NCBI GenBank assembly: GCA_964017155.1
Contig: OZ024866.1
Span: 21,075,326-21,139,325 of the forward strand
Direction: 5' to 3'
Length of the DNA stretch: 64,000 nucleotides
From: Oasisia sp. SBJ-2009
Taxonomy: Eukaryota > Annelida > Polychaeta > Sabellida > Siboglinidae
The position numbers and the translations under genes were made by a program. Of the stretch, positions 1 to 60,564 are shown piece after piece (the stretch's first letter is position 1; the number at the start of each line of letters is the position of its first letter). A model generated the notes under the pieces. It saw only the letters and a list, made by a program, of their open reading frames with translations. It made no database searches and was not told the origin of the DNA.

Positions 1-616
1 GTCTTTTAAGGTGACACCCGTGGGTTGTCGACAAATATGTGCCGTGTCATGAATGATGTATATATATGAAAATTGGTACAATAATTTCATTATAGCACTT
101 GACAATATATGAATTCTGACCCCACTGGCACATTGTGTACACCAAGGTGACCTTGAAGATACATATTGTAATTTGAGTAGTTGAATTTTAATATTAAAAA
201 CAAATATTCTCCATTATCCTGTTTTTTTGGGCCAAAAATGAATATTTGCCTTCTAGAAGATCTTATCAGCTCTGAAGCAAGGGTGTCAATTTCACAAATT
301 ATAGCCAGCTCAGTAGACACTTGTGTGCTAATTATCATTTAGTGATAAGAAGCATCTCACTTCAAACACTCACCCAGCAGGCTCAATTCCTATGAGGGCA
401 GTGACCAGTAAACAACATTGGTCTGAATGCCAGCTCTGTTGCATCAGTGGGCAGTCCCGTCTTCCAAGCCATCTGTCAGAAATGAAAAATAGGACATATC
501 ACACTTAGGAAGGGTTGTTAAATACAAATCAAGTGTACATGTGACTATTAGTGTAACCAATCAGTTGCTTTGAGGAAAATATCTACCCTACCCCCCTAAA
601 TTGGCCGCAGCCATAT
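1..616 (+). repeat. 5' flank of Mutator-like element copy 1 (direct repeat of 4314-4933)
   Basis: These 616 bases are nearly identical to 4314-4933, differing by scattered substitutions and a few 1-4 base indels. Each stretch ends directly before a Mutator-like transposase ORF, so this is the element's upstream region and probably holds its promoter. The repeat may extend left of the window. I searched by eye for an inverted partner of the first 40 bases and found none, so the terminal inverted repeats expected for Mutator-like elements are not demonstrated. Confidence 0.8.
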
Positions 617-2764
617 ATGCTTACTGTTGTCGTGTCAGTAGGTTGGTTTACTGTGGTGTGCAACATTTGGATTATTTTTGTGTACGTTTCATTTGTGATC
701 ATGTCTCACAAAGCTAGAGGGAAAAATAAGAGGGTGTGCGGTTTCAGGAAGGGTCATCCTGCATACACATCACACGGAGATGACAGCATGGGCGAAGGAG
801 ATAATGGAAATTTAGCCCGATGGATGCCGCGACTTACCCAAGCTGAGTTTGCACGCGTCAGTACATCGACTACAGCTGGCCTCATTCAGATACCTGACGC
901 TGAGGGTCACTCGGGCTCGGCAAAACTGCTTCGACCAACACACGATGGTGGTGATCGTGATGACTTGACAGCGAAATACCTACAAGGCAACGACACACAT
1001 GAGGAAATGCGTCTTTATGACAAAGGCATGATGGAACATATGTACAATGAATCTATTGAACAGCATTCAGGTCAGTGTTCAATACCCAAATTTACTGTAG
1101 CAAGAGAAATGAAAGTCGGACTGTGTTGGCAGTGCTGTCTACGGTGCGTTAAATGTGGATTCACATCAAAGACGTACAAGCTGTATCGCGAAGTGGAGAC
1201 AGGAAAGCGAGGACGTAAGCCAGCAGCCCCTAATGTTGACCTGCACGTGGGGCTACAAGAATCTACAACAGGCATTGCCAAGAGCCGTGTCATCTTCACC
1301 AGCATAAATATGCCGTCTCCATGTCTCAGTGGCATGCAGAAGGCCGCAAACCAGGCTGGTTCCACTACAGCGACCATGACATTGGCAGACTTGGCAAAGA
1401 AACCTGAAAATGTGAAAGAAATCAATCGGCTGCGTGGTCTACGTGAAAATGCACCAATAAATATAGCAATTGACAGTAGATACAATTCAGCAACTATCAC
1501 TGGGTCATATCATGCAGGACAAAACGCCAGTCAGGCAATCACTGTCGCTGTGGAGAAGCAAACAGGCAAGAATGATATTGTCGGCATTTGTATTCAAAAC
1601 AAGTTGTGCAGTCTCGGTGCTTTACTGAGGAGGCGAGGCATAGATGTCACTTGTCTGGGCCACGACAACTGCACAGCTACGCAGCCAGCGACAGAACCAC
1701 TGTCTGAGTACACAGCAGGGTTAGAGATAGGACGACAGTTTGCTCTCCAGAACATAGGACTTAGATATGTTGTCACCGACGGTGATGCGCACAGTGCAGA
1801 AGGTGTGAAGGCTGGTATGTCTAACACAGCATGCAGCATAGAACGACAAGCTGACACAACACATTTAGGACAATCAATGTTCAGAAACATGATGAAGACA
1901 CAATTCAGCGAGCGATTCTTCTCGGGGACGACAGCAGTAATGAGGAAGGAGCAAAAGAAAATGTTTGCGCTGGACGTGAAGAGCAGGTGTCACAGAATAC
2001 ACTCTACATTGAGTGACAGACATGCCGGTGACAACCGAAAAATCACGTCATTGATGCCACGTGTCATTGAGGCAACACTTGATTGTTACAGTGGTGATTG
2101 TCACAAGTGCCGGTACCACTCCATCGTCTGTGCTGGTGGGAAAAATAACAACTGGTGGCACATGTCTATGTTCTTACAGTGCGGACATATATCACACATT
2201 AACATGACAGACACAGACAGAGTCACTCTGCGAAAGGTCATTGAAATCACACTCGGTGGTCATGCACTAGAAATGACGAAACTGTGCTTGAACACTAACA
2301 AAAATGAGGGGTTGAACCGGTCGATATCTGCATCGCTTCCGAAGAACGTTAACTTCTCGCGCAATGTTACGGGCAGGACCTGTGCAACAGTGGACAGGTT
2401 AAACTATGGCATTGGAGTATCACTGCTGAGGAAACTTGAAGCAGTGAAGGCACCCATAACTAGGGGAGGAAGGGTTGCCCGTGTTGCAAGTCAGCTGCAA
2501 CGTGAGGCTGTATATCACCAAACGTACGTGCGAAGACCTGATGTGAGAAGACGGCTGTGTGCAAACAGGTGGAGAAGATTCAATGCTGCACATGACGCAA
2601 AGCGTCAGAGAGAGGCAATGGCTGACACACGAGCAGATGCACAAAGACGGTTATACCGTAAGGGACAGCTGGACACTACACCAAAAACAAATCAAAAAAA
2701 TGTCAAGGTCAACACTGTCACCAAAAAAAACCAAGGTCACGGTGAAAAAAAGAACTACCATTGA
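617..2764 (+). CDS. Mutator-like DDE transposase, full-length copy
   Basis: This intact 715-residue ORF resembles the animal 'Mutator-like transposase domain' proteins, which cut and paste DNA in the nucleus. Visible order: a basic, Cys-containing N-terminus; GFRKGHPAY and WMPRL family motifs near residues 43-80; a Cys cluster CWQCCLRCVKC near 175; first acidic residue in AIDSRYNS (about D286); second in TDGDAHS (about D388); a Cys/His stretch GDCHKCRYHSIVC; the Glu in NKNEGLNRS (about E564), followed by LPKNVNFSRN; and a very basic C-terminus. The first 28 residues are hydrophobic and untypical, so translation more likely starts at the Met at 701 (MSHKARGK). No stop or frameshift is visible. 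Downstream and convergent is a homing-endonuclease-like ORF. DDE assignment is by motif recognition; the exact catalytic residues are inferred. Confidence 0.85.
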   Translation: MLTVVVSVGWFTVVCNIWIIFVYVSFVIMSHKARGKNKRVCGFRKGHPAYTSHGDDSMGEGDNGNLARWMPRLTQAEFARVSTSTTAGLIQIPDAEGHSGSAKLLRPTHDGGDRDDLTAKYLQGNDTHEEMRLYDKGMMEHMYNESIEQHSGQCSIPKFTVAREMKVGLCWQCCLRCVKCGFTSKTYKLYREVETGKRGRKPAAPNVDLHVGLQESTTGIAKSRVIFTSINMPSPCLSGMQKAANQAGSTTATMTLADLAKKPENVKEINRLRGLRENAPINIAIDSRYNSATITGSYHAGQNASQAITVAVEKQTGKNDIVGICIQNKLCSLGALLRRRGIDVTCLGHDNCTATQPATEPLSEYTAGLEIGRQFALQNIGLRYVVTDGDAHSAEGVKAGMSNTACSIERQADTTHLGQSMFRNMMKTQFSERFFSGTTAVMRKEQKKMFALDVKSRCHRIHSTLSDRHAGDNRKITSLMPRVIEATLDCYSGDCHKCRYHSIVCAGGKNNNWWHMSMFLQCGHISHINMTDTDRVTLRKVIEITLGGHALEMTKLCLNTNKNEGLNRSISASLPKNVNFSRNVTGRTCATVDRLNYGIGVSLLRKLEAVKAPITRGGRVARVASQLQREAVYHQTYVRRPDVRRRLCANRWRRFNAAHDAKRQREAMADTRADAQRRLYRKGQLDTTPKTNQKNVKVNTVTKKNQGHGEKKNYH

Positions 2765-2854
2765 GCACCCGTACTGTCTTCGAGACAGATCTGTGGACGA
2801 CCACACATATCCGGCTAGCACATAAACAATGGTGACATAGTTACCTACTTACCT

Positions 2855-3046
2855 ACTCACAATACACAATACACCAATACACCAATACACCAATACACCA
2901 ATACACCAATACACCAATACACCAATACACAGACACAATACACCAATACACCAATACACCAATACACAGACACAATACACCAATACACCAATACACAACA
3001 CACACACCCACACACCCACACACCCACACCCACACACCCACACCCA

Positions 3047-3092
<46 letters not shown>
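2855..3092. repeat. minisatellite (8-bp unit ACCAATAC) grading into CCCACACA and (CA)n
   Basis: Roughly 2858-3000 consists of tandem ACCAATAC units interrupted by ACACAGACAC. It then passes into CCCACACA repeats and ends in a pure (CA)n tract at about 3050-3092. It lies just after the transposase stop codon, between the two convergent ORFs. Apparent minus-strand ORFs of 80-155 residues here are translations of the repeat and are not genes. Confidence 0.95.
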
Positions 3093-3094
<2 letters not shown>

Positions 3095-3298
3095 GCACAC
3101 TGTAGCAGTGTAGCAGTGTAGCAACAGAAGATTGTCACTGCAAACACAATGCTGTGAGGGAGGAAGGGAGGACACACAGACAGACGGGCGCACAGAAATG
3201 AACACTGCTGAACGAACGACTCTTGTGATGGTGAGTACCGGTACATGCTAATTGCAATTACTTTAAATTTAATTACCTCGTATTGAATTTCATTTTTT

Positions 3299-3688
3299 TT
3301 AAATGCACGGTGGGGATTGAGCATGTCCTATGCACTTTTTTTCTCTAGCACAAAGCTTCCTGTTACCATTCACAAAAGGCGTCTCAAGTATTAAATGGTC
3401 AACATTAATACACAGAGAATTGTGACACAGGTGGCTGCAGTGCATTTCAGGTGATAGCTCAGATTTCACATGTAGCATATACGCAAAACGATGAACACGC
3501 ATCGAGCGCCATCCCAAACCACCACCACAAAGTTGTTTGCATTTGGCATAAATTATGCCATACTGGCTCTTAATACCCCCTGCCAAGCGACATCTGGTGC
3601 CTGTCCACAACAAACACTGCCCATTGGGAGCCAACACTGTCTTTTGTTCCAACTTGGCTTGATAAGTAGTGTAGAATGCTTCGTCCAT
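3299..3688 (-). CDS. I-PpoI-like His-Me finger homing endonuclease (zinc-binding loop family)
   Basis: This 129-residue ORF is preceded by an in-frame stop two codons before its Met. It has LLWTGT near residue 27, YGIIY near 43, VHRFAYML at 65-72, then SHLCHNSLC, HL, ETPFVNGNRKLC and GH..PPC. Aligned by eye to the I-PpoI family, H86 is the general base, N107 the metal ligand, C88/C93/H98 belong to one zinc site and C113/C119/H122/C128 to the second. The 21-residue spacing from catalytic His to Asn equals that of I-PpoI (His98, Asn119). Such enzymes cleave long DNA sites with a metal ion and bend DNA through paired beta-strands. The ORF faces the Mutator-like transposase tail to tail and may be a second gene of that element or an independent cargo. 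All signature residues are present, so it may be active; its target is unknown. Confidence 0.82.
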   Translation of the reverse strand: MDEAFYTTYQAKLEQKTVLAPNGQCLLWTGTRCRLAGGIKSQYGIIYAKCKQLCGGGLGWRSMRVHRFAYMLHVKSELSPEMHCSHLCHNSLCINVDHLILETPFVNGNRKLCAREKKCIGHAQSPPCI

Positions 3689-4313
3689 TTCTTATACTAC
3701 TCACCGTAGTCAAGGAAGCTGGGCAATTCCATTTCAAATAGGGCATAAACCACCATTGAATTCTCCATAGGCGACAATTATAACGTTTCTTTGATTTCCC
3801 ACTAGGATTCTCTTTTCCCGGTCATAACATTTTCAGACATTAATTAACCTCCATTCATACCTGTCATATATAAAATTCGTGAAAATGTCATATCTCTTTC
3901 TCCTACAATCAAGCTGACAACCTTACACCCCTCCATTTTTGCTCCTTTCACCCGCCATTTGCCAATGTTGAAAGCCCTAGGCCAAACTACAACTGTATAC
4001 ATACGCACCTGATCACTGTCTGACAAATGTCATTATTTCACAGCCCAGATGCTATGCTGCACAAAAATATCATTTCCTCCCAACTAGTCCTACATTTAAC
4101 CCTTCCAGAAATTTACAAAAACTGCACAATGCAATTCTTTTCAGCAGAACTACAATGAGCAATGGCGGAGTAATCCTTTAGGTGGTATATGGCCTATTAG
4201 ATTCCGCAAGTGGTGCAAATCTTCACAAAAATGATATTACATTGAAGCAATGCATATATTGAGAAAAATAAATCCAGGAATTTTGCTGTATCGGCCCACT
4301 TATTAATTTACAT
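3689..4313. other. gap: no gene recognised
   Basis: AT-rich spacer between the endonuclease ORF and the second Mutator-like copy. A GTGAGT sequence just upstream of the endonuclease Met on the minus strand could be a splice donor of a 5' exon, but no convincing exon is seen. No inverted partner of the 4314 boundary was found. Confidence 0.5.
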
Positions 4314-4933
4314 GTCTTTTAAGGTGACACCCGTGGGTCGTCGACAAATATGTGCCGTGTCATTGAAGATGTGTATATGTGAAAATTGGTACAATAATTT
4401 CATTATAGCACTTGACAATATATGAATTCTGACCCCACTGGCACATTGTGTACACCAAGTTGACCTTGAAGATACATAATGTAATTTGAGTAGTGGAATT
4501 TTAATATTAAAAAAATATATTCTCCATTCTCCTGTTTTTTTTTGGCCAAAAAATGAATATTTGCCTTCTAGAAGATCTTATCAGCTCTGAAGCAAGGGTG
4601 TCAATTTCACAAATTATAGCCAGCTCAGTAGACACTTGTGTGTGCTAATTATCAGTTAGTGATAAGAAGCATCTCACTTCAAACACTCACCCAGCAGGCT
4701 CAATTCCTATGAGGGCAGTGACCAGTAAACAACATTGGTCGGAATGCCAGCTCTGTTGCACCAGTGGGCAGTCCCGTCTTCCAAGCCATCTGTCAGAAAT
4801 GAAAAATAGGACATATCACACTTAGGAAGGGTTGTTAAATACAAATCAAGTGTACATGTGACTATTAGTGTAACCAATCAGTTGCTTTGAGGAAAATATC
4901 TACCCTAGCCCCCTAAATTGGCCGCAGCCATAT
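4314..4933 (+). repeat. 5' flank of Mutator-like element copy 2 (direct repeat of 1-616)
   Basis: Nearly identical to the first 616 bases of the window, in the same orientation and 4313 bp away. The homology starts abruptly at GTCTTTTAAGGTGACACC and runs without a break into the coding region of copy 2. The two copies therefore arose by tandem duplication or by two insertions in the same orientation. Confidence 0.85.
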
Positions 4934-6025
4934 ATGCTTACTGTTGTCGTGTCAGTAGGTTGGTTTACTGTGGTGTGCAACATTTGGATTATTTTTGTGT
5001 ACGTTTCATTTGTGATCATGTCTCACAAAGCTAGAGGGAAAAATAAAAGGGTGTGCGGTTTCAGGAAGGGTCATCCTGCATACACATCACACAGAGATGA
5101 CAGCATGGGCGAAGGAGATAATGGAAATTTAGCCCGATGGATGCCGAGACTTACCCAAGTTGAGTTTGCACGCGTCAGTACATCGACTGCAGCTGGCCTC
5201 ATTCAGATACCTGACGCTGAGGGTCAATCGGGCTCGGCAAAACTGCTTCGACCAACACACGATGGTGGTGATCGTGATGACTTGACAGCGAAATACCTAC
5301 AAGGCAACGACGCACATGGGGAAATGCGTCTTTATGACAAAGGCATGATGGAACATATGTACAATGAATCTATTGAACAGCATTCAGGTCAGTGTTCAAT
5401 ACCCAAATTTACTGTGGCAAGAGAAATGAAAGTCGGACTGTGTTGGCAGTGCAGTCTACGGTGCGTTAAATGTGGATTCACATCAAAGACGTACAAGCTG
5501 TATCGCGAAGTGGAGACAGGAAAGCGAGGACGTAAGCCAGCAGCCCCTGATGTTGGCCTGCACGTGGGGCTACAAGAATCTACAACAGGCATTGCCAAGA
5601 GCCGTGTCATCTTCACCAGCATGAATATGCCATCTCCATGTCTCAGTGGCATGCAGAAGGCCGCAAACCAGGCTGGTTCCACTACAGCGACCATGACATT
5701 GGCAGACTTGGCAAAGAAACGTGAAAATGTGAAAGAAATCAATCGGCTGCGTGGTCTACGTGAAAATGCACCAATAAATATAGCAATTGACAGTAGATAC
5801 AATTCAGCAACTATCACTGGGTCATATCATGCAGGACAAAACGCCAGTCAGGCAATCACTGTCGCTGTGGAGAAGCAAACAGGCAAGAATGATATTGTCG
5901 GCATTTGTATTCAAAACAAGTTGTGCAGTCTCGGCGCTTCACTGAGGAGGCGAGGCATAGATGTCACTTGTCCGGGCCACGAAAACTGCACAGCTATGCT
6001 GGTATCAAAACTTTGTAAGTTATGA
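4934..6025 (+). pseudogene. Mutator-like transposase, 3'-truncated copy
   Basis: The 363-codon ORF is about 97% like the first half of the 617-2764 protein but diverges after NCTA (about base 5996) and stops 10 codons later. It keeps the N-terminal motifs, the Cys cluster and the first acidic residue (AIDSRYNS). It lacks the second Asp, the Glu and the basic tail, so it cannot be a working transposase. The sequence TTTGTAAGT at the divergence point resembles a splice donor; an alternative reading is therefore an exon joined elsewhere. Copy 1 reads through this position without an intron, which favours truncation. Confidence 0.8.
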
Positions 6026-6057
6026 TTTTTTCATAAATGCTTAGTTTAATTAATAGT

Positions 6058-6606
6058 TTAGATCGTCAACACGGTTCTCAGAACACATACCGTATTCGCC
6101 CGTGAGGAAAGTCCTTGATTTTCATCTGGCTGGAGGTAGCTTTCTATTAATGTTAGTCCTCGGTTTGGCCGCGGCCGAAGAATCTTGCTGCCGCCAGATA
6201 TTCCATCAGCATCAGGGACTGTCAAGAGGCCACCAGACGTTTCTTGTACAACTCTTGAGAAATCTTCCCTGTCTAGACGTGGCATCCATACAGAACTGTG
6301 CTGTGTTTCGGTCGTTTCGTCATGTGTTGATTCAAAATATGGGTGCCCTTGCTGAAAGCCACGGCTAGATTTGCACATTCTTCCAACAGGCGATGTTTTC
6401 CTATTACTAACCTTACTCGTCTCATTATTCTCATTATTTGCAGTCTCCTTCATTGTAATCGTGCACAGTAATCCCGGCAGAATTACAATTGGCAGAGACA
6501 AACCGTGATTTAAGATTTCAGACGTCGAAGGAGTCTGAAAGTCCAAATCACAGTGACAGAACACTGTGTGTTGGGGGGTGGGGAGTGGCTTAGACCAGTG
6601 GAGCAT
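6058..6606 (-). pseudogene. N-terminal fragment of a diverged Mutator-like transposase
   Basis: On the minus strand, residues after the likely start at 6453 (MKETANNENN) contain GFQQGHPYF, VWMPRL, EDFSRV, GLLTVPDADG and KILRP. These line up with GFRKGHPAY, RWMPRL, EFARV, GLIQIPDAEG and KLLRP of the 617-2764 transposase. Identity is clearly lower than between copies 1 and 2, so this is another subfamily. The homology ends after YLQPDE, and GTATGT follows shortly, either a splice donor or a chance sequence. It faces the truncated copy 2 tail to tail with about 60 bases between them, so two broken elements meet at about 6.0 kb. Confidence 0.7.
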
Positions 6607-7409
6607 CTGTTTGAAAATCTATGCCCAAAGTGGACCAATCAGAGTACAGCAGGGTGACCAATCTATCATTTTTTGTTTACTTCACCTAATTAGAAACATG
6701 GAAAGACCCCAGGATAAGGTGCTAATGACAACTGGGCTGTGCAACTTCTGATAATCACCCCCATAGGCCAGCCCACCCCTGGTGGCTGGCTTCTGACTTG
6801 ATCACTGCTCAATCAGGCAAGTGTGACATTGTATCAGGTGTCTACTAATTGCATTGTGTAATACTTTGCAATTGAACCAATTAAGACGTCTGGTCTTTGA
6901 AGAATGCTCACTTTAAGGTCATGTATCATGTATATTTACAGTCTTTTAATAGGGACAAGGGAAAACAGTCATCATAATTCTCACTGCAAAATGAAAATAG
7001 CCTGTATGTGATATTTTACAAAAAACATACTGGGCTCTCTGAAAAATTGGGTAATGTGTTCATATATGGCACACAAAAAAGTTTGTGCACTGTGTAGTTC
7101 TGCAAGATTAGGCATTTTGAAACTGTCGCCTGCTCACTGTTGTGGCGCTCTGTGAAATAGGGTGCACTTTGTAAATGTGTCTAAAAAAAAATGTGTGGAT
7201 GAAATAAAAAACAATTACAACATGTTGCTTCAAATAGGAGTGCCAGTAAAATGTGTTAATTTAATCTTCTGTTTACTAGGAAGCAAGTTTTTAATTCAAA
7301 AGCTCCCAGTTTATTTAAATATTAAAAAAAAAAAAATCTGATTTAAATTTAAAAAATATGCTTTAAATTGAAAAAATCCCCTTTTTCATTAATAAAAAAT
7401 CTCGCATGC
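6607..7409. other. gap: no gene; one short hairpin
   Basis: AT-rich sequence with A-tracts at 7185 and 7325. A GC-rich inverted repeat lies near 6763-6788 (CCAGCC paired with GGCTGG). Nothing else recognisable. Confidence 0.5.
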
Positions 7410-7770
7410 AACAAGATACTGGTATGCCTAGATGACGTCTTTGTATTAGGAAGGAGCTTTGAGAAGTCCCTCGAAAACTTGGAAGTCTTTCTCTAGAGAT
7501 TTGAGGCGAACAGTTTAAAACTGAAACCAAAAACACATTATTTGTTATGCAGAGATTTGCCTCCTTGGATGTATAGTGACCCACGAGGGTGTTTTCTTCA
7601 CTAATGACCATATCATGAGTGTACTAAACTAGCCACGACCAAGGAATGCATTGCAAGTGAGTAAGTTCACAACTACATGGGGAATTTATTCAGGGATTAT
7701 CTGAAAAAACGAAATATTGAAGAAACCAAAAGAACCATTTGAATGGACTGATTCGTGTGAAACTAAATTT
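7410..7770 (+). pseudogene. Ty3/Gypsy reverse transcriptase remnant
   Basis: One frame reads LVCLDDVFVLG, the catalytic box of a Gypsy reverse transcriptase with Cys in place of the usual Tyr before LDD. It is followed by SFEKSLENLEV and LKLKPK, typical of the segment after the box. Further on PRPRNALQVSKF and EPFEWTDSCETKF match the thumb and connection region. Stops and frameshifts interrupt it throughout, and no LTRs, protease, RNase H or integrase were found nearby. It is an old fragment of an LTR retrotransposon. Confidence 0.7.
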
Positions 7771-8084
7771 AGGTCTGATATTAGATTTCATACTGATCTT
7801 TACGCGAGGTGGCAGCACTACTGATACTGGTCGCCCTGTAGTAGGAAGACGGACTTTAACCAGTTCAAGGTCCATATGTTAATTAGGCATCGGAGATGAC
7901 TTTAGCCAATCAGCGGGACCCAGACCAGTGCGGACTTCATGACGCCATTGACTGACTTACCGCAGGAGGCCATCCCCTTCTGCGCTCCTGGCAGAACAGC
8001 TTCTGGTCAGGTAGATGGCGCCACTGTGCCTCCATGGTCTATGATGCAGAGTCCCTCATCACATGGTGAGCAGGGGTTGGGGCC
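7771..8084. other. gap: no gene recognised
   Basis: About 310 bases of GC-richer sequence than its neighbours; it may belong to the following retroelement fragment but shows no motif I can name. Confidence 0.4.
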
Positions 8085-8437
8085 GTGATAGACGGCCTCC
8101 CACAAAAAACGCGGGAGAGAGTTTGGGTATTTACAACAGCCGCAGCCTCCATCCATGCCCATGTACCAGCCAATGTTCGAGGTAAAGTATGGGCCGGAGA
8201 GTATGTTGAAATGTCGTCCTTGTTGCCTGGTTTCAGATCCAGCGAATCAAATCTCACGCTGGGCCTGCATCAACAAGGGGGACAATGGTCCATCCGCGGT
8301 GTGTCCGCCCTAAGGTGAGATTAAGAATTTTCCACAGTGGGTGAAAGCATTTCATATTTATATGTCTTTGTATCTATCACACCCAATTCACTACCACGAG
8401 GGCCCTGCACTGCTGAAATATGTCGATACAATAATTT
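8085..8437 (+). pseudogene. gag-like N-terminal part of a tyrosine-recombinase (DIRS/Ngaro-type) retroelement
   Basis: One frame gives KVWAGEYVEMSSLLPGF. After a frameshift near 8318 the sequence continues as FPQWVKAFHIYMSLYL and EGPALLKYVDTI. This pair of motifs (a 'W.GEYV....LLP' box, then a 'W..AF.IY......P....LLKY' box) is familiar from the ORF upstream of reverse transcriptase in animal DIRS/Ngaro-like polyproteins. The matching RNase H and recombinase lie 4 kb downstream in the same orientation. The homology ends at about 8440, where a Myb-like exon begins. Family assignment rests on memory of the motifs. Confidence 0.5.
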
Positions 8438-9075
8438 GTCCCTGCCTCAGCCCAGTCTACCGCATGGAAATGGTTAATGGTGTCGGTATGGCTGGGAAGA
8501 CTGCAAACCAGATTGAGAAGAAGTGGTCGGATCACAAAAGCCATATGCTGACAGCAATACAGAAATACAGAAACGAAATGCGTAAGACAGGTAAAATAAA
8601 GTAAACAGACATAATTACCTTGTTTTGTTAGAGAAATGTGTGTAATTTTTATCATGACATGAAAAGTGTAATGTACTTATCAATGGTAATTGTGGAAATA
8701 TATTTGTAATGTCATAGTAATAATTAATCCTTAAGTAGAAAGTAATGAATGTGTATAATAATAATATGTACGTATGGATGTGTGTGGCATCCACATTCAT
8801 ATGCAGTTTTTTTGTAACAGTTAACAGTAATAGATGTTTCAATCTCATATGTCGAGATATCACAAATGAATGATAATATTGAGAAATTATTAATCTCAAA
8901 TTATGTAATAACATGCAGTAGCTGTTATTTGTTAAGTAATCATTAAAGTGACATTTAGGAGGAGACCCCCACAACCACCTCTAACGAAAATGGAGGAGAT
9001 GGTGGAGGATATTGTTGGCATTGGGAACAGTGTCATCAGTGGAATTGTTGGTGGTGTTGACACCAGCAGTGTACA
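8438..9075 (+). CDS. Myb/SANT-like DNA-binding gene, two exons (partial)
   Basis: The exon ending at 8590 encodes MAGKTANQIEKKWSDHKSH, the third helix region of a Myb/SANT-like domain of the kind found in NAIF1 and in accessory genes of PIF/Harbinger transposons. It ends in CAG|GTAAAA. The next exon (8959-9075), after TTTAG, continues in phase as TGGDPPQPPLT and then GIVGGVDTSSVQ, exactly the order expected after such a domain, and ends at GTAAGT. The consistent splice phase supports a real spliced gene. The first part of the Myb domain is missing: upstream sequence is retroelement, so the exon is fused to foreign DNA. It is probably the DNA-binding partner gene of a Harbinger element, or a domesticated relative. 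Confidence 0.55.
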
Positions 9076-12845: not shown

Positions 12846-13493
12846 AACGCGATTTAATTCGATCATCACTGGCTCCCACGACGCGGGCTTCATACCGCTC
12901 TAGTCTTAGTAGGCTCAAAACGTATCTTGCACTCAGTGCACCTGGTACTGAATCACTTCCTTTGTCACAGGCACACCTTGCCGGTTTCATCACACATATG
13001 TTTTCATCTCACTATGCAGCATCAACAATCCTCTCCGCTGTCTCAGCAATCACATTCAGCCACAAGATTGTGGGGTTGCCAGACCCAGCAGACAGTTTTT
13101 ATATCAAAAAATTCCATGCAACTTTCCATACGTCATTACAAACATCAACAGGGCAACAGGCCATTCCTTCTGGAAATTACCGCAAAGTCTCGTCATTGTC
13201 CTATCCTTGCCATGAAACGATACCTCCGTGTTCGTGGTTCCTCACCTGGCCCCCTCTTCATCTTCGCCGATCACACACCGATATCAGCCTCCTATTTCGC
13301 CAGACAGCTGGCGACTTGTCTGTCACCTTGTGGATATAACACCACCATGTACACCGGACACTCCTTCCGCATTGGGGCGGCGACAACGGCTGCTGAAAGG
13401 GGTTGTACTGACATTCAGATCCAAACTATGGGTAGATGGAAATCCAACGCTTTCCGACGCTATATTCGCATCCCGATGATGCATTCATCATAA
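12846..13493 (+). pseudogene. tyrosine recombinase of the same retroelement, internally deleted
   Basis: The N-terminal arm is readable as LERDLIRSSLAPTTRASYRS and later SQAHLAGFITHMF, TILSAVSAITFSHK. About 13165-13200 the frame changes, and the C-terminal core follows: GSSPGPLFIFADHTPIS, YTGHSFRIGAATTAA and MGRWKSNAFRRYIRIP. The His-x-x-Arg pair and the terminal Tyr nucleophile are present, but the region with the first catalytic Arg is missing. Total length is about 215 codons against the usual 300 or more. The protein integrates circular cDNA in DIRS/Ngaro-like elements; this copy cannot be active. Confidence 0.8.
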
Positions 13494-37125: not shown

Positions 37126-40100
37126 TCACTTGACTCTTGCTCTCCATTTGTCTCTCTGCTGTGAGAGTGATGTCCAGGAGTCGATCTTTATGTCTCTCAG
37201 CTTCAGGTTTCTCTTGATGGTATCTTTGAACCGGAGACGAGGGCGCCCTCTCTTTCTGTGACCAGAAGACAGTTGGGAGTAGAGAACCTGCTTCGGTAGC
37301 CTGTCTGATGACATCCTCATGAGGTGTCCAGTCCACCGGAGATTCTTTCTGATCAGAAGATCTTCCATAGATGGCAGCCCTGTCCGTTCGAGTATTTCCT
37401 TGTTTGTCACTTTGTCCATCCAGGTTATCCTCATGATCGAACGCAGATGTCGCATCATGAAGGCATGCAACTTTTTCACCTGTCGTCTGTACACTGTCCA
37501 GGCCTCGGCTCCGTATAGGAGGGTGGACAGCACAATTGCACGGTATATCTTGCCTTTAACCCGCATGGACACATGGTGGTTGTTCCAGAGTCTCTGGCGT
37601 AGTCGGCCGAAAGATGCACTAGCCTTGGCCATCCTCCTCTGTATTTCATCGTCAATGCATCCGTCACTTGATATAGTGCTTCCGAGGTAGGTGAATTCTA
37701 TAACAGAGTTCAGCTTGTTTCCATCAACCATGATATCCTTCTCTCGGGTTCTTGTAGAGTTGGGTTGGTACAGCACCTCGGTCTTCTTGATGTTAATCTT
37801 CAGGCCGAACTTCTTTGACGCATTGGAAAAAGCATCCACTATTTTCTGGATCTCTTCAGCAGAGTGTGCAACCAGTGCACTGTCATCTGCGAATAGCAGC
37901 TCCCTCATCAGTATCCGTGTAGTCTTGGTCTTCGCTCTGAAGTGTGCGACATTGAATAGGTCAGCGCTCTGTCTGGACTGTATGTAGATGCCATCCCCCA
38001 TGTCTCGGAAAGCATTGTCGAGCATTGCTGATAGGAAGATGGAAAAGAGCGTGGGCGCCAGTACACAGCCTTGCTTGACCCCATTTGTGACCCTGAACGA
38101 TTCCGAGACTTCCCCTCCAACATTAACAGTCGCCATCATTCCGGTATGTAGTGCCTCGATCATTGTTGTGAACTTCTCTGGGCAGCCATACTTCTTCAGT
38201 AGCTGCCATAGTCCGGTCCTCCCAACTGTATCGAACGCCTTACTGAAGTCGACAAATACCATGTACAGTGGTCGGTCCTGCTCAATGCACTTTTCTTGTA
38301 GTTGTCGGAGACAAAATATCATATCCACGGTGCTCCGGTTACCTCTGAAGCCACATTGTGTCTCCGGAACTACCTCTGGTGTTAGGTGGGTAGATAGTCT
38401 GTTGAGGAGGATCCTGGCGAAGATCTTGCCTGCTATGGAAAGAAGAGAGATTCCTCTATAGTTCCCACAGTCTGTTCGATCACCTTTCTTGTAGATGGTT
38501 ATAATGCTTGCATCCTTCCATGCTTGTGGTACAGAACCCATCTCCCAAGCATTGGTGATTAGTTGGTGCAGTCTGCTGAACAGATTGTCTCCTCCATGCT
38601 TCCATACTTCTGCAGGAATTCCATCTCCTCCAGGTGCTTTGCCATCTTTCAGGCTGGCGATTGCTCTAGCCATCTCATCCATAGTTGGAATCTCATCAAG
38701 GCTTGTCTTGGTAATGCGCTGCGGGATGTTGTCCAGAGCTTCGTGATCTATGTCGCCAGGGACGTTGAGTAGCTTCTGGAAGTGTTCACTCCATCTTGCC
38801 ACAACTCTCTTGCTGTCAGAGAAGGTTTCCATTCCGTCTGTTGATTTTAGTTGAACAGGTCCCTTCTTTTTGGGTCCCCACACTTCCTTCAGTCCATTGT
38901 AGAAGCCCTTCATGTTGTTACTGTCGGCAGCTCTCTGCAGCTCCACTGCTTTCCTTTCCCACCAGTCCGACTTCAGTGCACGGGTGTGTTTTTGTAGCAG
39001 TCTGCAGGCATCTTTGTATGCTGCAGTGGTGGATCTAGTACTCCTGGTTTGCAACACTCTCTGGTGGGCTTGATCTCTTCTGCTCATAAGAGTCTGTAAC
39101 TCCTGGTCGTTGGGGTCGAACCAGTCCTGGTGTTTTCTGTCCGGCTTGCCAAGATATGTCTTGGCTGTGTTGTACACAACCTGCTGCAGAGCTGCCCATT
39201 CCTCGTCTGGTGTTGAGTTTTCCTTCTCCTCCCAATGGGCGAGAGCACTGTCCATCTCCTGCTCAAAACTCTCCCTATGGCTGATGGTACTTAGTTTTGC
39301 AGTGTTGAGCTTGGTCGGCTTATTTGTCCCTTGCCTGTTGTGCTTTTGTCGTATTCTGAAAGCCACTTTTGATCTCAGCATCTGGTGATCGGTCCAGCAG
39401 TTTGCTCCACGCATGGCTCGGGTGCTGTGGATGTCCATCTTATCCCGACACCTCGTGATGATGAAGTCGATCATATGCCAGTGTTTGGAACGAGGATGCA
39501 TCCAGGTGGTCTTGCGTTCATCCTTCTGCTTGAACATGGTGTTCGTCACTATCAGTTCGAACTCAGAGCACAGAGCCAGTAGAAGTTCGCCATTGGAGTT
39601 GCATTTCCCAATCCCATGTTTGCCCATGACCAAGGGCCACTTGTCATTGTCTCTTCCTATCCTCGCATTGAAGTCTCCTATCAGCAGTAGCTTATCGGTA
39701 TGAGGGATGCCCCTGAGCACACTTGTGAGCTGGTTGTAGAAGGCCTCCTTGTTTTCGTCTGGGTTTGTCATTGTCGGAGCATACACGTTGATAATTGTAG
39801 CAAAGTTGTCCTTGCTCAGAGGTAGTCTCATCGTCATGATTCTGTCACTTACTGGCCGTGGCATTTCTGTCAGCTTTGTGATGATATCCTTTTTGATAGC
39901 AAAGCCCACTCCGGCCTCCCTTCTTTCTCCTTCGGGTTTGCCACTCCAGAAGAAAGAGTATTCCAAGTCGTCGAGACTACCAGACTCTGAGAACCTTGTT
40001 TCACATAGGGCGGCGATGTCGATGTTGTATTTGGCAAGTTCCATTGCTACTAGTGCCGTACGTCTTTCTGGTTGGTTAGCTCCTTCTCGGTCGAGGAGAG

Positions 40101-40257
40101 TCCTGACGTTCCATTGTCCAATTGTCAGTAGTTGTCTTCTTTGTCTTCTTCTTCCTAGCTGATTTTCCACTGTCGACGGAAGATGAGGTCGAGCAGCGCG
40201 GTCCTTGGTAACCCGGGCGACGGCCGATCCGGTATCATGTTTCGTGCAGTTGTACAT
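37126..40257 (-). CDS. LINE endonuclease/reverse transcriptase polyprotein (1043 aa)
   Basis: The protein nicks target DNA and copies the element RNA there. An APE-type endonuclease occupies about residues 43-300: GQWNVRTL (N50), ALCETRF (E86), LIGDFNARIG (D195, N197), MIDFIITR (D264) and WTDHQ (D290-H291). Reverse transcriptase follows at about 520-870: KDASIITIYKKGD, NYRGISLLSIAGKI, ETQCGFRGNRSTVDMIFCL, MVFVDFSKAFDTV (motif A, about 668-677), GVKQGCVLAPTLFSIFL and LLFADDSALVAH (catalytic FADD at 789-792). The C-terminus has RWTGHLMRM and RKRGRPRLRFKD, usual for the group. All key residues are present and no stop interrupts. The N-terminus resembles the endonuclease part of 'craniofacial development protein 2-like' sequences, which derive from RTE elements. 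Other Met codons upstream of residue 43 are possible starts. Confidence 0.95.
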   Translation of the reverse strand: MYNCTKHDTGSAVARVTKDRAARPHLPSTVENQLGRRRQRRQLLTIGQWNVRTLLDREGANQPERRTALVAMELAKYNIDIAALCETRFSESGSLDDLEYSFFWSGKPEGERREAGVGFAIKKDIITKLTEMPRPVSDRIMTMRLPLSKDNFATIINVYAPTMTNPDENKEAFYNQLTSVLRGIPHTDKLLLIGDFNARIGRDNDKWPLVMGKHGIGKCNSNGELLLALCSEFELIVTNTMFKQKDERKTTWMHPRSKHWHMIDFIITRCRDKMDIHSTRAMRGANCWTDHQMLRSKVAFRIRQKHNRQGTNKPTKLNTAKLSTISHRESFEQEMDSALAHWEEKENSTPDEEWAALQQVVYNTAKTYLGKPDRKHQDWFDPNDQELQTLMSRRDQAHQRVLQTRSTRSTTAAYKDACRLLQKHTRALKSDWWERKAVELQRAADSNNMKGFYNGLKEVWGPKKKGPVQLKSTDGMETFSDSKRVVARWSEHFQKLLNVPGDIDHEALDNIPQRITKTSLDEIPTMDEMARAIASLKDGKAPGGDGIPAEVWKHGGDNLFSRLHQLITNAWEMGSVPQAWKDASIITIYKKGDRTDCGNYRGISLLSIAGKIFARILLNRLSTHLTPEVVPETQCGFRGNRSTVDMIFCLRQLQEKCIEQDRPLYMVFVDFSKAFDTVGRTGLWQLLKKYGCPEKFTTMIEALHTGMMATVNVGGEVSESFRVTNGVKQGCVLAPTLFSIFLSAMLDNAFRDMGDGIYIQSRQSADLFNVAHFRAKTKTTRILMRELLFADDSALVAHSAEEIQKIVDAFSNASKKFGLKINIKKTEVLYQPNSTRTREKDIMVDGNKLNSVIEFTYLGSTISSDGCIDDEIQRRMAKASASFGRLRQRLWNNHHVSMRVKGKIYRAIVLSTLLYGAEAWTVYRRQVKKLHAFMMRHLRSIMRITWMDKVTNKEILERTGLPSMEDLLIRKNLRWTGHLMRMSSDRLPKQVLYSQLSSGHRKRGRPRLRFKDTIKRNLKLRDIKIDSWTSLSQQRDKWRARVK

Positions 40258-40601
40258 TTCATGGAAGCTGCTAGCAAAAACTTTTGAAGTACCGCTGGCT
40301 TTTGCAAGTTACTAGCGACACTCTCTCGGGGAACAAATAGAGGTCTCACACCGGCAAGAACATGTCAAGACAGGCGCAAACTATTTGTCCCTGCAGTGGC
40401 TGGTCGAGAGATGTTGGGAGTTCCATACACCAACCGCCCTTGATGCTGCCACAGTGACATGGTTTTCTGTTTAGGGTTTGCTCCCTTAGCCTTCGGTTCT
40501 GACAAGAACCTATACCACAAGGCAGTGGTTTACAACTCTGCATGGCAGGGGCGTCAAACTCCCTGAGGTATTGCAATACCTGAGGTACTGCAATACCTGC
40601 A
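40258..40601 (-). promoter_or_regulatory. 5' untranslated/promoter region of the LINE
   Basis: 344 bases between the target duplication and the start codon. The outermost 40 bases consist of AGGTATTGCAATACCT palindromes, potential protein-binding sites for internal transcription initiation. The small ORF at 40346-40606 lacks gag-like features, so no ORF1 is claimed. Confidence 0.55.
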
Positions 40602-43635: not shown

Positions 43636-46109
43636 CTTAAAGGGAAAACAAAGGCAACGGTTTGGTGATATGGGCCTAATAGAGTTAAGAAAAACTAACA
43701 ATTTCCAACCTCAATCACATTTTTAACGACAACAGTTTAGCAGAAACAAATTGTAGAACATATATCTATAGAAAGTCTATGGAAAACGCCATTTTAGAAA
43801 AACAGTGACGTATGAGACTCACCGCCACTGATAGGCCAGTGGTTGTCGTACTACTTCTTGGCAACTCCGTTGGGTGGCGCTGTGACTTTGCGCTCACAAA
43901 GGAGCGTAAATAATAACATGGATTTTCTGATTCTTCATCTGACGGAAATAGCACGGATTCAGAAGTGGCTGGATATAGATTTCAGCCACAAAGACAAAGG
44001 CTTGTGTTGTCAGACAGACCAGATGTGCGTGGTGGTGAAGACCCAAGGGAAATTGAAATGACAAGAAGAGAAACAACCAGTCCAGAGGCAGACACGGCAT
44101 CGACTGGTGTCAACAATGACATGTACTATCCGACCTAACCATGAAAACGACCGCCAGCAGCCGCCAAACTTCTCATCACTTGTCTTACATACATATACAT
44201 ACACTATGTCATAAAATAAAATCACTTGCATTCCTCTAACGAAGAAAATTCACAAAAGTAACTCGATCGCAGATCCCGATGGCAACTCAGGCTCTTCGGT
44301 TACCGTAACATCGCTATAAAAGTTAGATTTACACAAAATAACGTTAGGCGGCGCGGTGGTCCGCGCGAATATTTATAAACTTTATTTACTGCATTCGCAC
44401 GCGCGAAATAGTTTAATTAATCAAGTAATAATTCATTATTATCATTACAAAGATCTTCAGAAAATGTTAAGTTTTCTTATAATATAATCATAATTTTTTT
44501 TTCTTATAGTGCCAAATCCATAATTGTTTATGGCGCTTCACAATATGATGTTATTAAAATATATGCAATAAGAAGAATGCTACCCACAGGTAATATTAAA
44601 AAAAAAAAATGCATGTGTTTGCATAAAATTACGTGTTGTTCGATGATGTCACAATGTTAATTTTCAGAATATTTCTATAAACATCCCGCATGTACTGCAA
44701 GCATGCAAGCTTATATTATATAAACGATGTTTTTAACAATGATAACGAAACAATAACATATTATTATTTTTGAATGCTCCAAAACCTTCTTTTTCTACCA
44801 CCATATATTTCCCATATTATATTCATATTCTGCTTAAATTTCAGTGATTTATTGTCCCGATAATTAATACAGTGTTTTGTCCAAAAATAATTATTATTAC
44901 ATATCTGGTGGTGGAAATATAATTAATGAGTAGAAAAATGTATAGCTTCAATAATATTTTCTTATGCATACTGTGTGTATGTGCTGAATGAAAATTATTG
45001 TTACGTCGTAATTATTTTACCATCTTAATTATTTATTACCTTTACATTAATTTACCACTATTGTTGTTATGGAATTTGTAAGGGTTCTTTTTAATACTGA
45101 TAGGTCTCTTAGTTAATTACATAGACAAACATATTTTCATTATTTATTTTGAAATATTATCTGTGGGTAGTATTCTTCTTATTGTATTTTTAATAGCAGT
45201 ATGTTGTGAAGCGCCACAACCAGTTATGGATGTAACGCTATATAAATAAAATACTATATTATAATAAAACTTATAATTTCCTGCAAATCATAGTGATGAT
45301 AATAATTAATTATTACTATATTATTTACAATTAATTAAACTATTTTGCGCATGCAAATGCAGTAAGTAAAGTTTATCAATATTCGCGCGCACAAACGTGC
45401 CGTCTAATGGCATTTTGTGTAAGGCTAACTAACTAAGGCTAATTTGTGCGATTTTACGGTACCGGCCAGCGGTCATCGAAATTGCCGTCGACATCAGCGC
45501 GTTTGTTTTATGGATTTTCTTCGTTAGAGGAATGCAAGTGATTTTATTTTATAACGTAGTGTATGTATATGTATGTAACATACGTTAGGATAAGTTTGGC
45601 GGCTGTTGGTGGTCGTTTTGATGGTTAGGTCAATCAAATTGGGTCGTCTTGGATCGGCGCTGTGTCTGTGACTGTCCCAACGAATCCACCGAAACACTGT
45701 TTCAGTTCTGCTCGATTCAAAGGTTAACAAGAAGACATCTTAGTGATACTGTCTTTCACTGTACTGTTACCATAAGCGTATGAGGAACAGTGTGGCATAC
45801 TGCTGTCGCGATTTCGTGGTAAACCGACGTAAGGCAACTTTTAGTGTACCGCTTGGCTCTCTGTTATGACAGCTGAACCAGCAGACGACTCTCTGACGTA
45901 TTACTTTTCCAAACTGGGTTGTGATTGGTTGCAAGGTCCAAGATGGGCCGGTTCATGGTGTCGGTGATTTAGCTAGATTTTCCCACTTTAAGACCACTTT
46001 CTGAGGTAACCACTAAGGTGAAAAATTGGATTGTAGATGCAAATGATTAGCTAGTGTAAACTCTTTTAGGTGCATAACACTAAACTGTTGCCTTTTTTTT
46101 CACTTTAAG
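43636..46109 (+). mobile_element. foldback-type element, left copy (inverted partner 49848-52316)
   Basis: The 2474-bp unit starts CTTAAAGGGAAAACAAAGGC and ends with the inverse of CTTAAAGTGAAAAAAAAGGC. An internal mirror runs from about 44130-44620 to 45140-45630, sharing GCGCGAATATTTATAAAC or GCGCGAATATTGATAAAC and GGCGCTTCACAA-type words. The whole unit is repeated inverted at 49848-52316 at very high identity. No transposase is encoded; the small ORFs are shared between the copies but show no motif. No clear target duplication was identified. Confidence 0.8.
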
Positions 46110-46439: not shown

Positions 46440-46817
46440 ATCAGTAATAGATGGAAACAGCACCAAGTCAGTTTGTTCACTGTTGCATTTTGGCACTCTG
46501 GCAAGCTGCACTCAAAGGTTGTTGCATCAGATAACCTGACACATTCTAAGGAGACATGTGTGGTGTATGTCAGCCGGCTGCTTGATGACATCCCAGCAAC
46601 AGTCAAGAGTGTCTCAATCTGGTCCGATGGACCGTCTTCACAATTCAAAAACCACTACATTGCAGCGTCACTCCATGCACTCGAGAAGAAAGGGATCAAG
46701 ATTCTGTGGAACTTTTTTGCAACTTCTCATGGAAAGGGTCCTGTTGATGGCATTGGGGGATCTGTCAAACGTCATGTGTGGACAACGTCAACGTGGTACG
46801 CACAAGAAGAAAATTAG
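46440..46817 (+). pseudogene. transposon-like ORF with the SDGPSSQFKN / TSHGKGPVDGIGG motifs
   Basis: An open frame without a good ATG at its start reads FTVAFWHSGKLHSKVVASDN, SIWSDGPSSQFKNHYIAA, then WNFFATSHGKGPVDGIGG and SVKRHVWTTS, stopping at TAG 46815. I know this block (W-SDG..-QFKN, then FFATSHGKG..DGIGG..KR) from numerous repeated, probably transposon-derived animal proteins, but cannot name the superfamily. The conserved Asp and His-Gly-Lys...Asp suggest a nuclease or integrase-like core. It sits in the loop between the two foldback copies and just before a minisatellite that may have replaced its 3' end. Upstream and downstream parts are missing. Confidence 0.5.
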
Positions 46818-46859
46818 AAAGAAGGCTTCCCTACCTGTTGTCTTCCATCGCACCAGCAT

Positions 46860-47266
46860 GGTACCATCCATATGTCCACTTTGAAGTAACCAGCCTGGTA
46901 CCATCCATATGTCCACTTTGAAGTAACCAGCCTGGTACCATCCATATGTCCACTTTGAAGTAACCAGCCTGGTACCATCCATATGTCCACTTTGAAGTAA
47001 CCAGCCTGGTACCATCCATATGTCCACTTTGAAGTAACCAGCCTGGTACCATCCATATGTCCACTTTGAAGTAACCAGCCTGGTACCATCCATATGTCCA
47101 CTTTGAAGTAACCAGCCTGGTACCATCCATATGTCCACTTTGAAGTAACCAGCCTGGTACCATCCATATGTCCACTTTGAAGTAATCAGCCTGGTACCAT
47201 CCATATGTCCACTTTGAAGTAATCAGCCTGCTACCAACCATATGTCCACTTTGAAGTAACTCTCAA
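46860..47266. repeat. 37-bp minisatellite, 11 copies
   Basis: GGTACCATCCATATGTCCAC marks units every 37 bases from 46860; the inner copies are nearly perfect and the last two degraded. Thirty-seven is not a multiple of three, yet all minus-strand frames stay open for over 110 codons; these ORFs are artefacts. It begins 43 bases after the stop of the transposon-like ORF. Confidence 0.97.
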
Positions 47267-48446
47267 TACACACTACAGTCGGACTGTCCCATTGTTCTGT
47301 CGATCTGCTGCTCAGGATTTCTGGGAAAGGTGGCACTGCAGCTGCAGGCAAAATACCTCAGTGGCCACCTCTGTGTTGTTTGAAAGGCTCTTGTTCCAAC
47401 GACTGTTGTGAGGGGTTACATGTCCGTCGATCATATTATCCAAGAAATTGTCATGAGGACTGATCAATGAATATCGCAAGGATATTTCCAAGGACCAAGA
47501 AAACAGGTCGTGTTAAAGGTCACGAAATGTGGATCTGCCACGCCACCTGGTGACTGTATTGTAATCTCCAATTGCCAGTACGTTGTCAATTTCGAAATAT
47601 TAAACACGAAGTCCAGAATAGTGATTTGTGTTTTATCCAAAAAGTAACCTGCAAGATCGAACTGTAGTAAAATATCTTGGAATCAAGCGACGTTGCGTGT
47701 CTGCTACTGTATTGAGTTGGCTCATTATTGTATCCGCAAGTTGACAACAGAGGTCTCTAAAGTCTTGATTTGGTTCCCTGTATATTCCAGCAAGTCCACA
47801 GACAGTGGATAACAATTTGAGCCTTTTCTGCATCGCACATCTAATTGCACTACAACTATGGTATGATCTATATGTACACACAACAGTGCACACAAAGGTA
47901 ATACTGAGGTCACCATTAAAACCAGATGTTGACAATTTTCACTGTCTTGTGTCATTGTAAGGATTTATCCAACCACCAGTCCATATTTATCTTGGCTGCT
48001 TGGAAGGAGTGACATTGCATGGATTGGTGATTCTGTGTTCTGTCATGTTTTCCGTGTGGTGAAGACCGTTAGAATATCAAAAATCATCCACAGTCGTGTT
48101 GTCACAATGTCACCAATGTCACTGGTGAGACATTGAGCTGAAACAACACAAACAAAATATTATTGTTCATGCACAAATGTGCTTTTTGACAAATGACAAA
48201 CCAACTTAGGGTTGATCTCAAAAGTTGGCCTACTCCCCAGAAACATTATGGCTTTAGCGTTGGTTTAAATCACCTTCACACTGACAAATATTTCAATATG
48301 TTCTGCGACATGTAGTGTTTATGACTCAAAACTAATAAATGTCAGTGTCAATTTGCATTAATATATTTCTCTCACAATATGGCGCCACTGCACAACTGCT
48401 TTCCCACTGATATAGTTCATACTCATAATTAAACAAAACACACCAG
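47267..48446. other. gap: no gene recognised
   Basis: The minus-strand frames at 47633-47955 are open for 76-100 codons but carry no motif. The DNA is less AT-rich than its flanks, so it may be a decayed coding part of the element in the loop. Confidence 0.4.
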
Positions 48447-56920: not shown

Positions 56921-57346
56921 ACATGCTCCTGTACACGAAACAGCAATCCAAACAAGTACATACAAATCCACGCACGCATCAATGCATATGCATATGCATA
57001 TTCATTTTATCCAAGAGTCATTAGGGCCTGGAACACACTTCCCCCAGAAGTCATAAGCATACCAACACTTCACCCATATTCAAACAAGCCCTCAGTACCA
57101 TCAACCTTGTTGCTCCAGCCCACCTCACTAGATTATAGCCAAAAAATCGACACAGAAAACTTTTTTTAATCTGCACAAATTATTACACTTATCTACACAG
57201 TTAATCGCACGTTTTCAGTGTTATTGTTCCTATTGTTCTTATTGTTCTTCTAACTTCACTTTCATCTTCTTGCACCTCTAGCATTGCATACCGCACACAC
57301 TCCTATGTTAGCCCCATAAGGGGCTGTATGGAGTACATGAACAAAG
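56921..57346 (+). pseudogene. LINE C-terminal fragment with 3' hairpin
   Basis: The frame reads SNPNKYIQIHARINAYAYAY and SFYPRVIRAWNTLPPEVISI, the 'FFPRTIR.WN.LP.EV' end of CR1/jockey-group ORF2 proteins. About 150 bases later a short hairpin AGCCCC/GGGGCT (57310-57325) precedes GTATGGAGTACATGAACAAA, likely the 3' end of the element. It interrupts the first unit of the tandem array; the corresponding place in the second unit (about 58960) is uninterrupted. Confidence 0.65.
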
Positions 57347-57972
57347 AACAGGCACTAAATGCATTACCTCCACAGCAGCGTCGCCGTCTTGTCTCCCGAT
57401 TTTAATATCAGACGAGCGAAAAACTGTAAACGCCGCCGCGAAACATGTTAACACCTCCCAGTCCGATAGGTGACCTACGTAAGTTCTTATAAATCATAGC
57501 GCAGTATAGAGTTCTTTGGAATGCCAAAGCGCTTCACACTTTACTTCCCTGGCAGACCTGTTCAATCAAGCACCATCTCAACTTGGCTAGAAAACATTTA
57601 GCCACGCAGAAATTAATGCGCGAAGACTGCTCATGCTAAACACCACAGTCTAACGCCATGCAATCCTCTATGCAGCTGTGTGAACAAAAGCAGTGTAGGA
57701 TGAAATAACTTCGCTATGAATTTGTTCCGTGTTTTTACTGGCTGGATAGTTTCCCAAAACCTACTTTCACCGGTAAAAGACAAGTGTCGTAAGAAGACAA
57801 ATACCCGCACGAACGCGCACGTGAACGCACACGTGAACGCACACACAGGAAACGTAAAATTTGACGCATGCATATAAGGAGACAACGTCGTCAGGAAGTT
57901 GCGCATTGCGCAGCTGCGTGTTCGCACAATTAGCGGTCACGTGATTGCTGTTTCCGCCCAACAACGAGCAGG

Positions 57973-58341
57973 GTGATAGAGGAATGTGAAATCGAAGTGG
58001 ATACGCGAAAGGATAGTTGTTTTCATTTCTTCGTCGTTTTCTCCTTCGTCGTCTTTATTGGTTCGTTCCTGATACAATTATCATTTATTCGTTTCAATGT
58101 TGTTGTAGTGATCGGCCACGATGATATCGAGATATGGACTGCAAACAACAAGGCCATCGGATTGGGATTCGAAGAGGCTTTCTTAGCGAACGTCGATCGA
58201 AATGGAAGAGACTTCACATTCGGATCTCGGATCAAGTTGAGGAAACGGCTGTTACGCCTAAATGACAGTGACTTTATTAGTAATTATCGGACTTTAAATG
58301 TTAGCGTTTTGCGAGATGTAGATTGTTGTAGTTTATTTTAG
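57973..58341 (+). CDS. hypothetical ORF in array unit 1 (122 codons)
   Basis: It begins MIEECEIEVDTRKDSCFHFF, has a hydrophobic stretch VVFSFVVFIGSFLIQLSFI, and ends IKLRKRLLRLNDSDFISNYR and TLNVSVL. Only the last part is conserved in the second unit. That part slightly recalls the N-terminal 'F..RYRL' region of PIF/Harbinger transposases, too weak to name. Probably non-functional. Confidence 0.25.
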   Translation: MIEECEIEVDTRKDSCFHFFVVFSFVVFIGSFLIQLSFIRFNVVVVIGHDDIEIWTANNKAIGLGFEEAFLANVDRNGRDFTFGSRIKLRKRLLRLNDSDFISNYRTLNVSVLRDVDCCSLF

Positions 58342-60538: not shown

Positions 60539-60564
60539 GGTGTAGATTGTTGTAATTTATTTTA

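Follow-up and report, generated by a model that had tools for sequence, protein, structure and literature searches.

The window analysed here, a stretch of 64,000 nucleotides (C13:21075326-21139325 of a 764-Mb genome in 33 contigs), very probably contains an autonomous KolobokP transposon with which a tandem array ends on its right side; together with the mechanism proposed below, this is the best joint explanation of the data. The identity as KolobokP is hardly open to doubt, based on the transposase signature, the fold and motifs of the nuclease, the size class of the long terminal direct repeat (LTDR), copies with an internal region between two LTDRs (LTDR-INT-LTDR) that are flanked by target-site duplications (TSDs), and solo LTDRs. 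The element is a composite structure with two convergent genes, it is under purifying selection between families, and it has been amplified in tandem both with and without LTDRs. The pairing of a transposase with a homing-type nuclease is real and regular, but of a kind that has been in print since 2022. The first-pass annotation of this DNA knew of no described animal system of this sort; this is out of date, since KolobokP, which combines a transposase with an I-PpoI-like nuclease in the same architecture, has been published with 228 families from 7 animal phyla (Kojima & Bao, 2022, Mobile DNA 13:24, PMC9587614). The features of the element in the window are as follows.

1-3740, plus strand: internal region (INT), the last of ten tandem units; this unit 10 starts at C13:21075211, 115 bp to the left of the window.
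617-2764, plus strand: DDE transposase of the Kolobok superfamily, as predicted from PF20700 and conserved residues, 715 aa open.
About 2855-3091, no strand: CA-rich microsatellite between both genes (repeat family D1), read directly.
3299-3688, minus strand: predicted I-PpoI-like His-Me (His-Cys box) nuclease of 129 aa, with PF05551 and a profile match to I-PpoI.
3741-4194, plus strand: LTDR of 454 bp, GGGC...GGCC, with imperfect terminal inverted repeats (TIRs), placed by TIR search, INT-INT junctions and solo copies with TSDs.
4021-4032, no strand: palindrome TGACA-AA-TGTCA within the LTDR, a candidate site of binding or cleavage whose arms are unchanged in all four LTDRs aligned.
4195-5996, plus strand: start of a further, truncated INT, of which 4314-5996 aligns to 1-1679.
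4934-6025, plus strand: transposase gene of this truncated INT, 5' portion; the homology stops at residue 354 (position 5995).

The convergent arrangement of transposase (617-2764, plus) and nuclease (3299-3688, minus), split by a microsatellite, had been noted in the first-pass annotation and is confirmed by Pfam and direct reading. Window positions 1-1679 recur at 4314-5996 with 97.7% identity. The truncated INT is adjoined, in opposite orientation, by the N-terminal piece of another KolobokP-like transposase (6061-6606, minus), which comes from a third family and is 38% identical to the window transposase over 92 columns and 36% identical to the transposase P0049; a TIR scan of 6001-9000 for its LTDR yielded only a 581-bp candidate with a score of 11 (8317-8897). 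The remainder of the window contains several other features. Two inverted arms of about 2.4 kb (43636-46065 and 49889-52316), 94-99% complementary and separated by about 3.8 kb, look like an element with long TIRs or a palindromic duplication. An ORF of 1060 aa (37129-40308, minus) with endonuclease and reverse transcriptase domains represents a non-LTR retrotransposon. Another ORF (12858-13490, plus) matches tyrosine recombinases below the threshold (PF00589, 1.3e-4) and might be what is left of a DIRS- or Crypton-like element. The stretch 57346-62091 consists of diverged tandem repeats, each about 2.2 kb long, and a tandem array of a 37-bp repeat is present at 46778-47332.

The transposase ORF matches Pfam PF20700, 'Mutator-like transposase' (E 1.3e-50), and the first-pass annotation had used this name. 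The match stands, but the name is only a Pfam label, and judged by its conserved signature residues the protein belongs to the Kolobok superfamily. The window sequence was aligned with those 72 of the 91 relatives found that have 640 aa or more. D388, D390 and E564 are conserved in 73/73 sequences and D286 in 72/73. All 73 sequences also keep each residue of D413xxH416, the zinc finger C490/C498/C505 between DxxH and E564, and the CCHC finger C331/C346/H349/C352 after the first D. The window transposase thus has the three acidic residues, the C/DxxH motif, the zinc finger and the CCHC finger that typify Kolobok-type DDE enzymes. An alternative start at codon 29 (position 701) is equally possible. 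MuDR of maize is likewise a DNA transposon with a convergent gene pair, and the comparison with MuDR in the first-pass annotation was apt for this shared layout, but the likeness stops there. In contrast to MuDR, the window element shows the signature of Kolobok, in which the catalytic residues are accompanied by two zinc-finger motifs; it also has LTDRs, and its second gene encodes a nuclease, whereas MuDR is not known to carry one. The ends are LTDRs with imperfect TIRs and not the long terminal inverted repeats of classical Mutator elements, and TSDs of 3-5 bp are seen instead of the 9 bp of classical Mutator (MuDR). The roles of the Kolobok signature residues are taken from the description in PMC9587614.

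The nuclease ORF matches PF05551, the zinc-binding loop of homing endonucleases (E 1.4e-11). A profile of 55 nuclease relatives retrieved I-PpoI from the PDB (E 7.6e-9), with the segment H86-C113 aligned onto I-PpoI, and structure prediction yielded a confident I-PpoI-like model. C25, H86, C88, N107, C119 and H122 are invariant among the 55 sequences, and C93, H98, C113 and C128 are kept in at least 90% of them. C25 and C128 are presumably zinc ligands, as judged by their conservation and by the I-PpoI numbering. The protein is therefore predicted to carry the His-Me active site and the two zinc sites of I-PpoI-type (His-Cys box) homing endonucleases, and the window copy retains all eight predicted zinc ligands. 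The signature residues that the first-pass annotation had seen are thus in place (H86, N107 and the eight predicted ligands). The likeness to I-PpoI, the homing endonuclease of a Physarum group I intron, comprises the His-Me fold, the catalytic His/Asn pair (H86 and N107 here) and the eight predicted zinc ligands; unlike I-PpoI, the window nuclease is encoded by a transposon and not by an intron, and the identity over the structural alignment is 17-20%. An I-PpoI-like target in the element was considered and rejected: the sequences at positions 1 and 4314 match the 15-bp I-PpoI site at 11/15 positions, but 16 places in the window match equally well or better, and no excess of I-PpoI-like sites was found within the window. 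The scans of viral contigs revealed no relatives. In prokaryote genomes, one bacterial contig (L001) contains a short HNH-type match beside phage-like genes, which is a remote relative only, and no transposase was noticed among its listed ORFs.

The first-pass annotation had suggested selection on the nuclease across copies as a check, and selection is indeed visible in the comparison of the window family A with family B, the transposase of which is 72% identical. The dN/dS ratios are 0.10-0.12 for the nuclease (about 0.11, five comparisons) and 0.13-0.14 for the transposase (four comparisons); these ratios are rough, because the synonymous sites are near saturation (dS 1.4-2.1). Within array A there is no sign of purifying selection between the two transposase copies of the window, which differ in 5 synonymous and 14 nonsynonymous codons (dN/dS 0.83).

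The ends of the element were defined by several approaches. A TIR search of 3690-5060 placed the arms at 3737-4198 or 3740-4195, a result that was matched by 4/200 shuffles; the imperfect TIRs are about 14-15 bp long, and the ends GGGC..GGCC (3741-4194, 454 bp) were fixed by solo copies and INT-INT junctions. Twelve LTDR loci were read. Nine are solo LTDRs with TSDs of 3-5 bp, which represent seven distinct sites (three share one flank), two are followed by INT sequence, and one has no clear TSD. Dispersed copies of family B have the structure LTDR-INT-LTDR with TSDs of 4-5 bp in 3/3 loci (CATCG, CAAAT and AGAT, by eye), and a family A copy on C5 has the same structure and the TSD AGCT (by eye); the TSDs of array A are not readable, because its right end is truncated. 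Terminal repeats enclosing both genes, for which the first-pass annotation had suggested looking, are therefore present in the LTDR-INT-LTDR copies. KolobokP likewise has two LTDRs, the termini of which read 5'-RR..YY-3' and form short TIRs, as well as TSDs of 3-5 bp and solo LTDRs; the published size classes of the LTDR are about 450 and 660 bp (PMC9587614), and the 454 bp seen here fall into the former.

The LTDRs of families A and B agree at 370/452 aligned positions, while synonymous sites are near saturation. TGACA-NN-TGTCA is the sole inverted repeat with arms of 5 (spacer up to 8) that is invariant in the LTDRs of A, B, C and the C-like D. In a shuffle control, at least one such repeat occurred in 89/2000 cases, and in 17/1000 with a spacer of up to 2. 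Its form is TGACAGCTGTCA in LTDR groups C and D and TGACAAATGTCA in groups A and B. As a candidate cut site of the nuclease the palindrome is only a weak lead, because it was noticed first and tested afterwards. It could equally be a binding site for a host transcription factor or for the transposase and not a nuclease target, a view that we neither favor nor disfavor. It would agree with the position of the LTDRs upstream of the transposase gene, where they may hold the promoter, and with the resemblance of TGACAGCTGTCA to the sites of TALE homeodomain factors, which we take to count for it. However, TGACAAATGTCA fits the TALE motif less well, and a homodimeric I-PpoI-like nuclease is also expected to use a near-palindromic site.

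The window element closes array A on C13, which has the structure LTDR-INT x10-LTDR followed by the truncated INT. The left LTDR is at C13 21040206-21040661, no LTDRs are present between the ten INTs, and the right LTDR is that of the window. All nine INT-INT junctions are identical, and thus a single LTDR loss was amplified, in contrast to nine losses; 3-5 bp are lost at the junctions, depending on the LTDR end drawn. A differing footprint on C14 (L035) indicates at least one further LTDR loss event. Units 3-9 of array A are alike at 99.2-99.8%, while units 1 and 10 have 97.7-98.7% identity to the rest. The transposase ORFs have sizes of 711, 638 (seven units), 482 and 715 aa, i.e., they end early (at 638 or 482) in 8/10 units. 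C119 of the nuclease, a predicted zinc ligand, is lost in units 1-9 (C119Y in eight, C119H in one) and kept only in the unit of the window.

Array B, which is formed by family B, lies in opposite orientation about 15 kb to the left of array A. It comprises nine LTDR-INT units and a part without LTDRs between the units, for which 14 nuclease copies were counted in the stretch that was examined; the array contains an N run of 5 kb. The nuclease has 132 aa in 9/9 copies of the left part with LTDRs, and stops at residue 68 in 14/14 copies of the LTDR-less right part. A link between LTDR loss and nuclease damage would fit both arrays on C13 (C119 lost in A, stop at 68 in B-right, 132 aa in B-left), but it is not supported, as it fails on C14: there the nuclease has 132 aa at three junctions that lack an LTDR (L056-L058), and a truncated nuclease of 122 aa lies beside an LTDR in L059, L062 and L063. 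An array on C6 (43.872-43.995 Mb) contains 35 listed nuclease matches without any internal stop, mostly at a spacing of about 3.62 kb. The 8.5 kb that were read there comprise units with LTDR and open nuclease, and both full units lack transposase residues 283-458 and, with them, the DxxH motif and two of the catalytic acids, the first and the second. A further array, of nuclease fragments with a spacing of about 2.1 kb and frames broken by TGA in many rows, was seen on C7 (13.232-13.282 Mb) and is probably a non-autonomous KolobokP derivative.

We propose that the transposase would bind the inverted ends of the LTDR and move either a single LTDR or the full LTDR-INT-LTDR. The nuclease would introduce a site-specific double-strand break in or at the LTDR, and repair of this break off a sister or neighbouring copy would add or restore an INT, whereby tandem units multiply. 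This tandem growth is modelled on the 'induced unequal crossover' of Kojima & Bao (PMC9587614). Once the LTDR between two INTs is lost, ordinary unequal exchange could still carry the INT-INT unit through the array. A role of the nuclease in tandem amplification is plausible, with slightly more doubt than confidence on our side. The competing explanation, which deserves serious consideration although our doubts somewhat outweigh our confidence, is that ordinary unequal crossing-over, at LTDRs or at INTs, produced the arrays, and that the nuclease serves another step, e.g., homing that converts a solo LTDR to a full element, or the resolution of transposition intermediates. The LTDR-less half of array B (stop at 68, 14/14) and array A (C119 lost in 9/10 units) both grew, showing that growth does not depend on the nuclease in cis, and the expansion of array A and of the B-right runs without LTDRs indicates that these are dispensable for growth. 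Ordinary unequal exchange is therefore sufficient at least sometimes. In addition, homogeneity within array A is highest in the middle and lower towards both ends, a pattern that ordinary exchange produces. However, other copies could supply the nuclease in trans, and as it is constrained like the transposase between families, it does something for the element. The repeated unit on C6, moreover, retains the open nuclease and not the transposase core. This array shows that a unit can be repeated without the transposase core; its open nuclease gives no certain word on selection, because the copies are recent. A more specific version of nuclease-driven growth, namely that the nuclease cuts the conserved LTDR palindrome and that neighbour-templated repair adds units even without the transposase core, as a homing-like copy-number engine separate from transposition, seems improbable.

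The regularity of the pairing was analysed throughout the genome, with counts that are lower bounds, as 62/427 transposase, 150/316 nuclease and 40/1126 LTDR candidates were scored. A listed convergent nuclease is located within 2 kb for 46/62 listed transposases. The two are separated by 402-1255 bp (median 431), and up to a distance of 4 kb no nuclease was detected on the same strand. This count used 80 of the 150 nuclease rows, the other 70 being on stretches without a listed transposase. Thirteen of the 16 listed transposases without a convergent match within 2 kb are B-right copies, where the broken nuclease is visible, one is a partial match on C5 with a nuclease 2.2 kb away, and two have no listed nuclease (C7:52585647 and C3:51912653). 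The conjecture that the nuclease is a regular second gene, so that DDE enzyme and I-PpoI-like nuclease are combined in one transposon, is thus borne out. In other datasets, eight nuclease/transposase cluster pairs have the same source and an identical contig size among the matches listed (one of three lists being the best 120 of 352), whereas 200 offset controls gave 0.875 such pairs on average and never more than 3. For 34/91 transposase clusters (P0021 to P0110) the longest contig has 3.9-4.8 kb, about one LTDR-INT unit, and these might be collapsed arrays or circles. The predicted protein P0103, from a 4825-base contig, joins a nuclease that looks complete to a downstream C-terminal transposase half encoded by the same strand, in contrast to the usual convergent layout, and may be an artefact of gene prediction or assembly. 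The alternative raised in the first-pass annotation, that an independent homing gene landed by chance beside the transposase, could appeal to the group I introns from which I-PpoI-type nucleases are otherwise known (PMC9587614) and to the many nuclease rows on stretches without a listed transposase, though only 62/427 candidates were scored, but it is refuted for the Oasisia genome and extremely improbable, given the near-constant distance in the 46/62 convergent pairs, the enclosure of both genes by one LTDR pair, the same-contig pairing in other datasets and the 228 published families with this pairing (PMC9587614). These independent data agree with the published KolobokP and show that transposase and I-PpoI-like nuclease travel together under selection.

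The architecture follows that of KolobokP, with the DDE transposase on the direct strand and the downstream His-Me nuclease on the complementary strand, and KolobokP also forms (LTDR-INT)n and LTDR-(INT)n-LTDR multimers with the loss of a few bp at INT-INT junctions (PMC9587614). Two features differ from the published elements, i.e., the LTDR-less run comprises ten INTs, compared to at most four in the main text of PMC9587614, and one Oasisia array repeats an open nuclease together with a transposase without core. Neither KolobokP runs of ten INTs without LTDRs nor arrays that combine an open nuclease with a core-less transposase were found in that main text or among the entries listed by a search of the openly accessible literature. 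Both are extra detail within a known kind. A 2025 paper on bivalves mentions Kolobok multimerization, citing the KolobokP work (PMC12750733).

The arrays described here represent natural cases that bear on the proposed nuclease model: LTDRs are present in some and absent in others, the nuclease is intact in some and damaged in others, and one array lacks the transposase core. Should tandem growth indeed be driven by the nuclease, this would be a route by which a DNA transposon gives rise to gene-bearing, satellite-like arrays.
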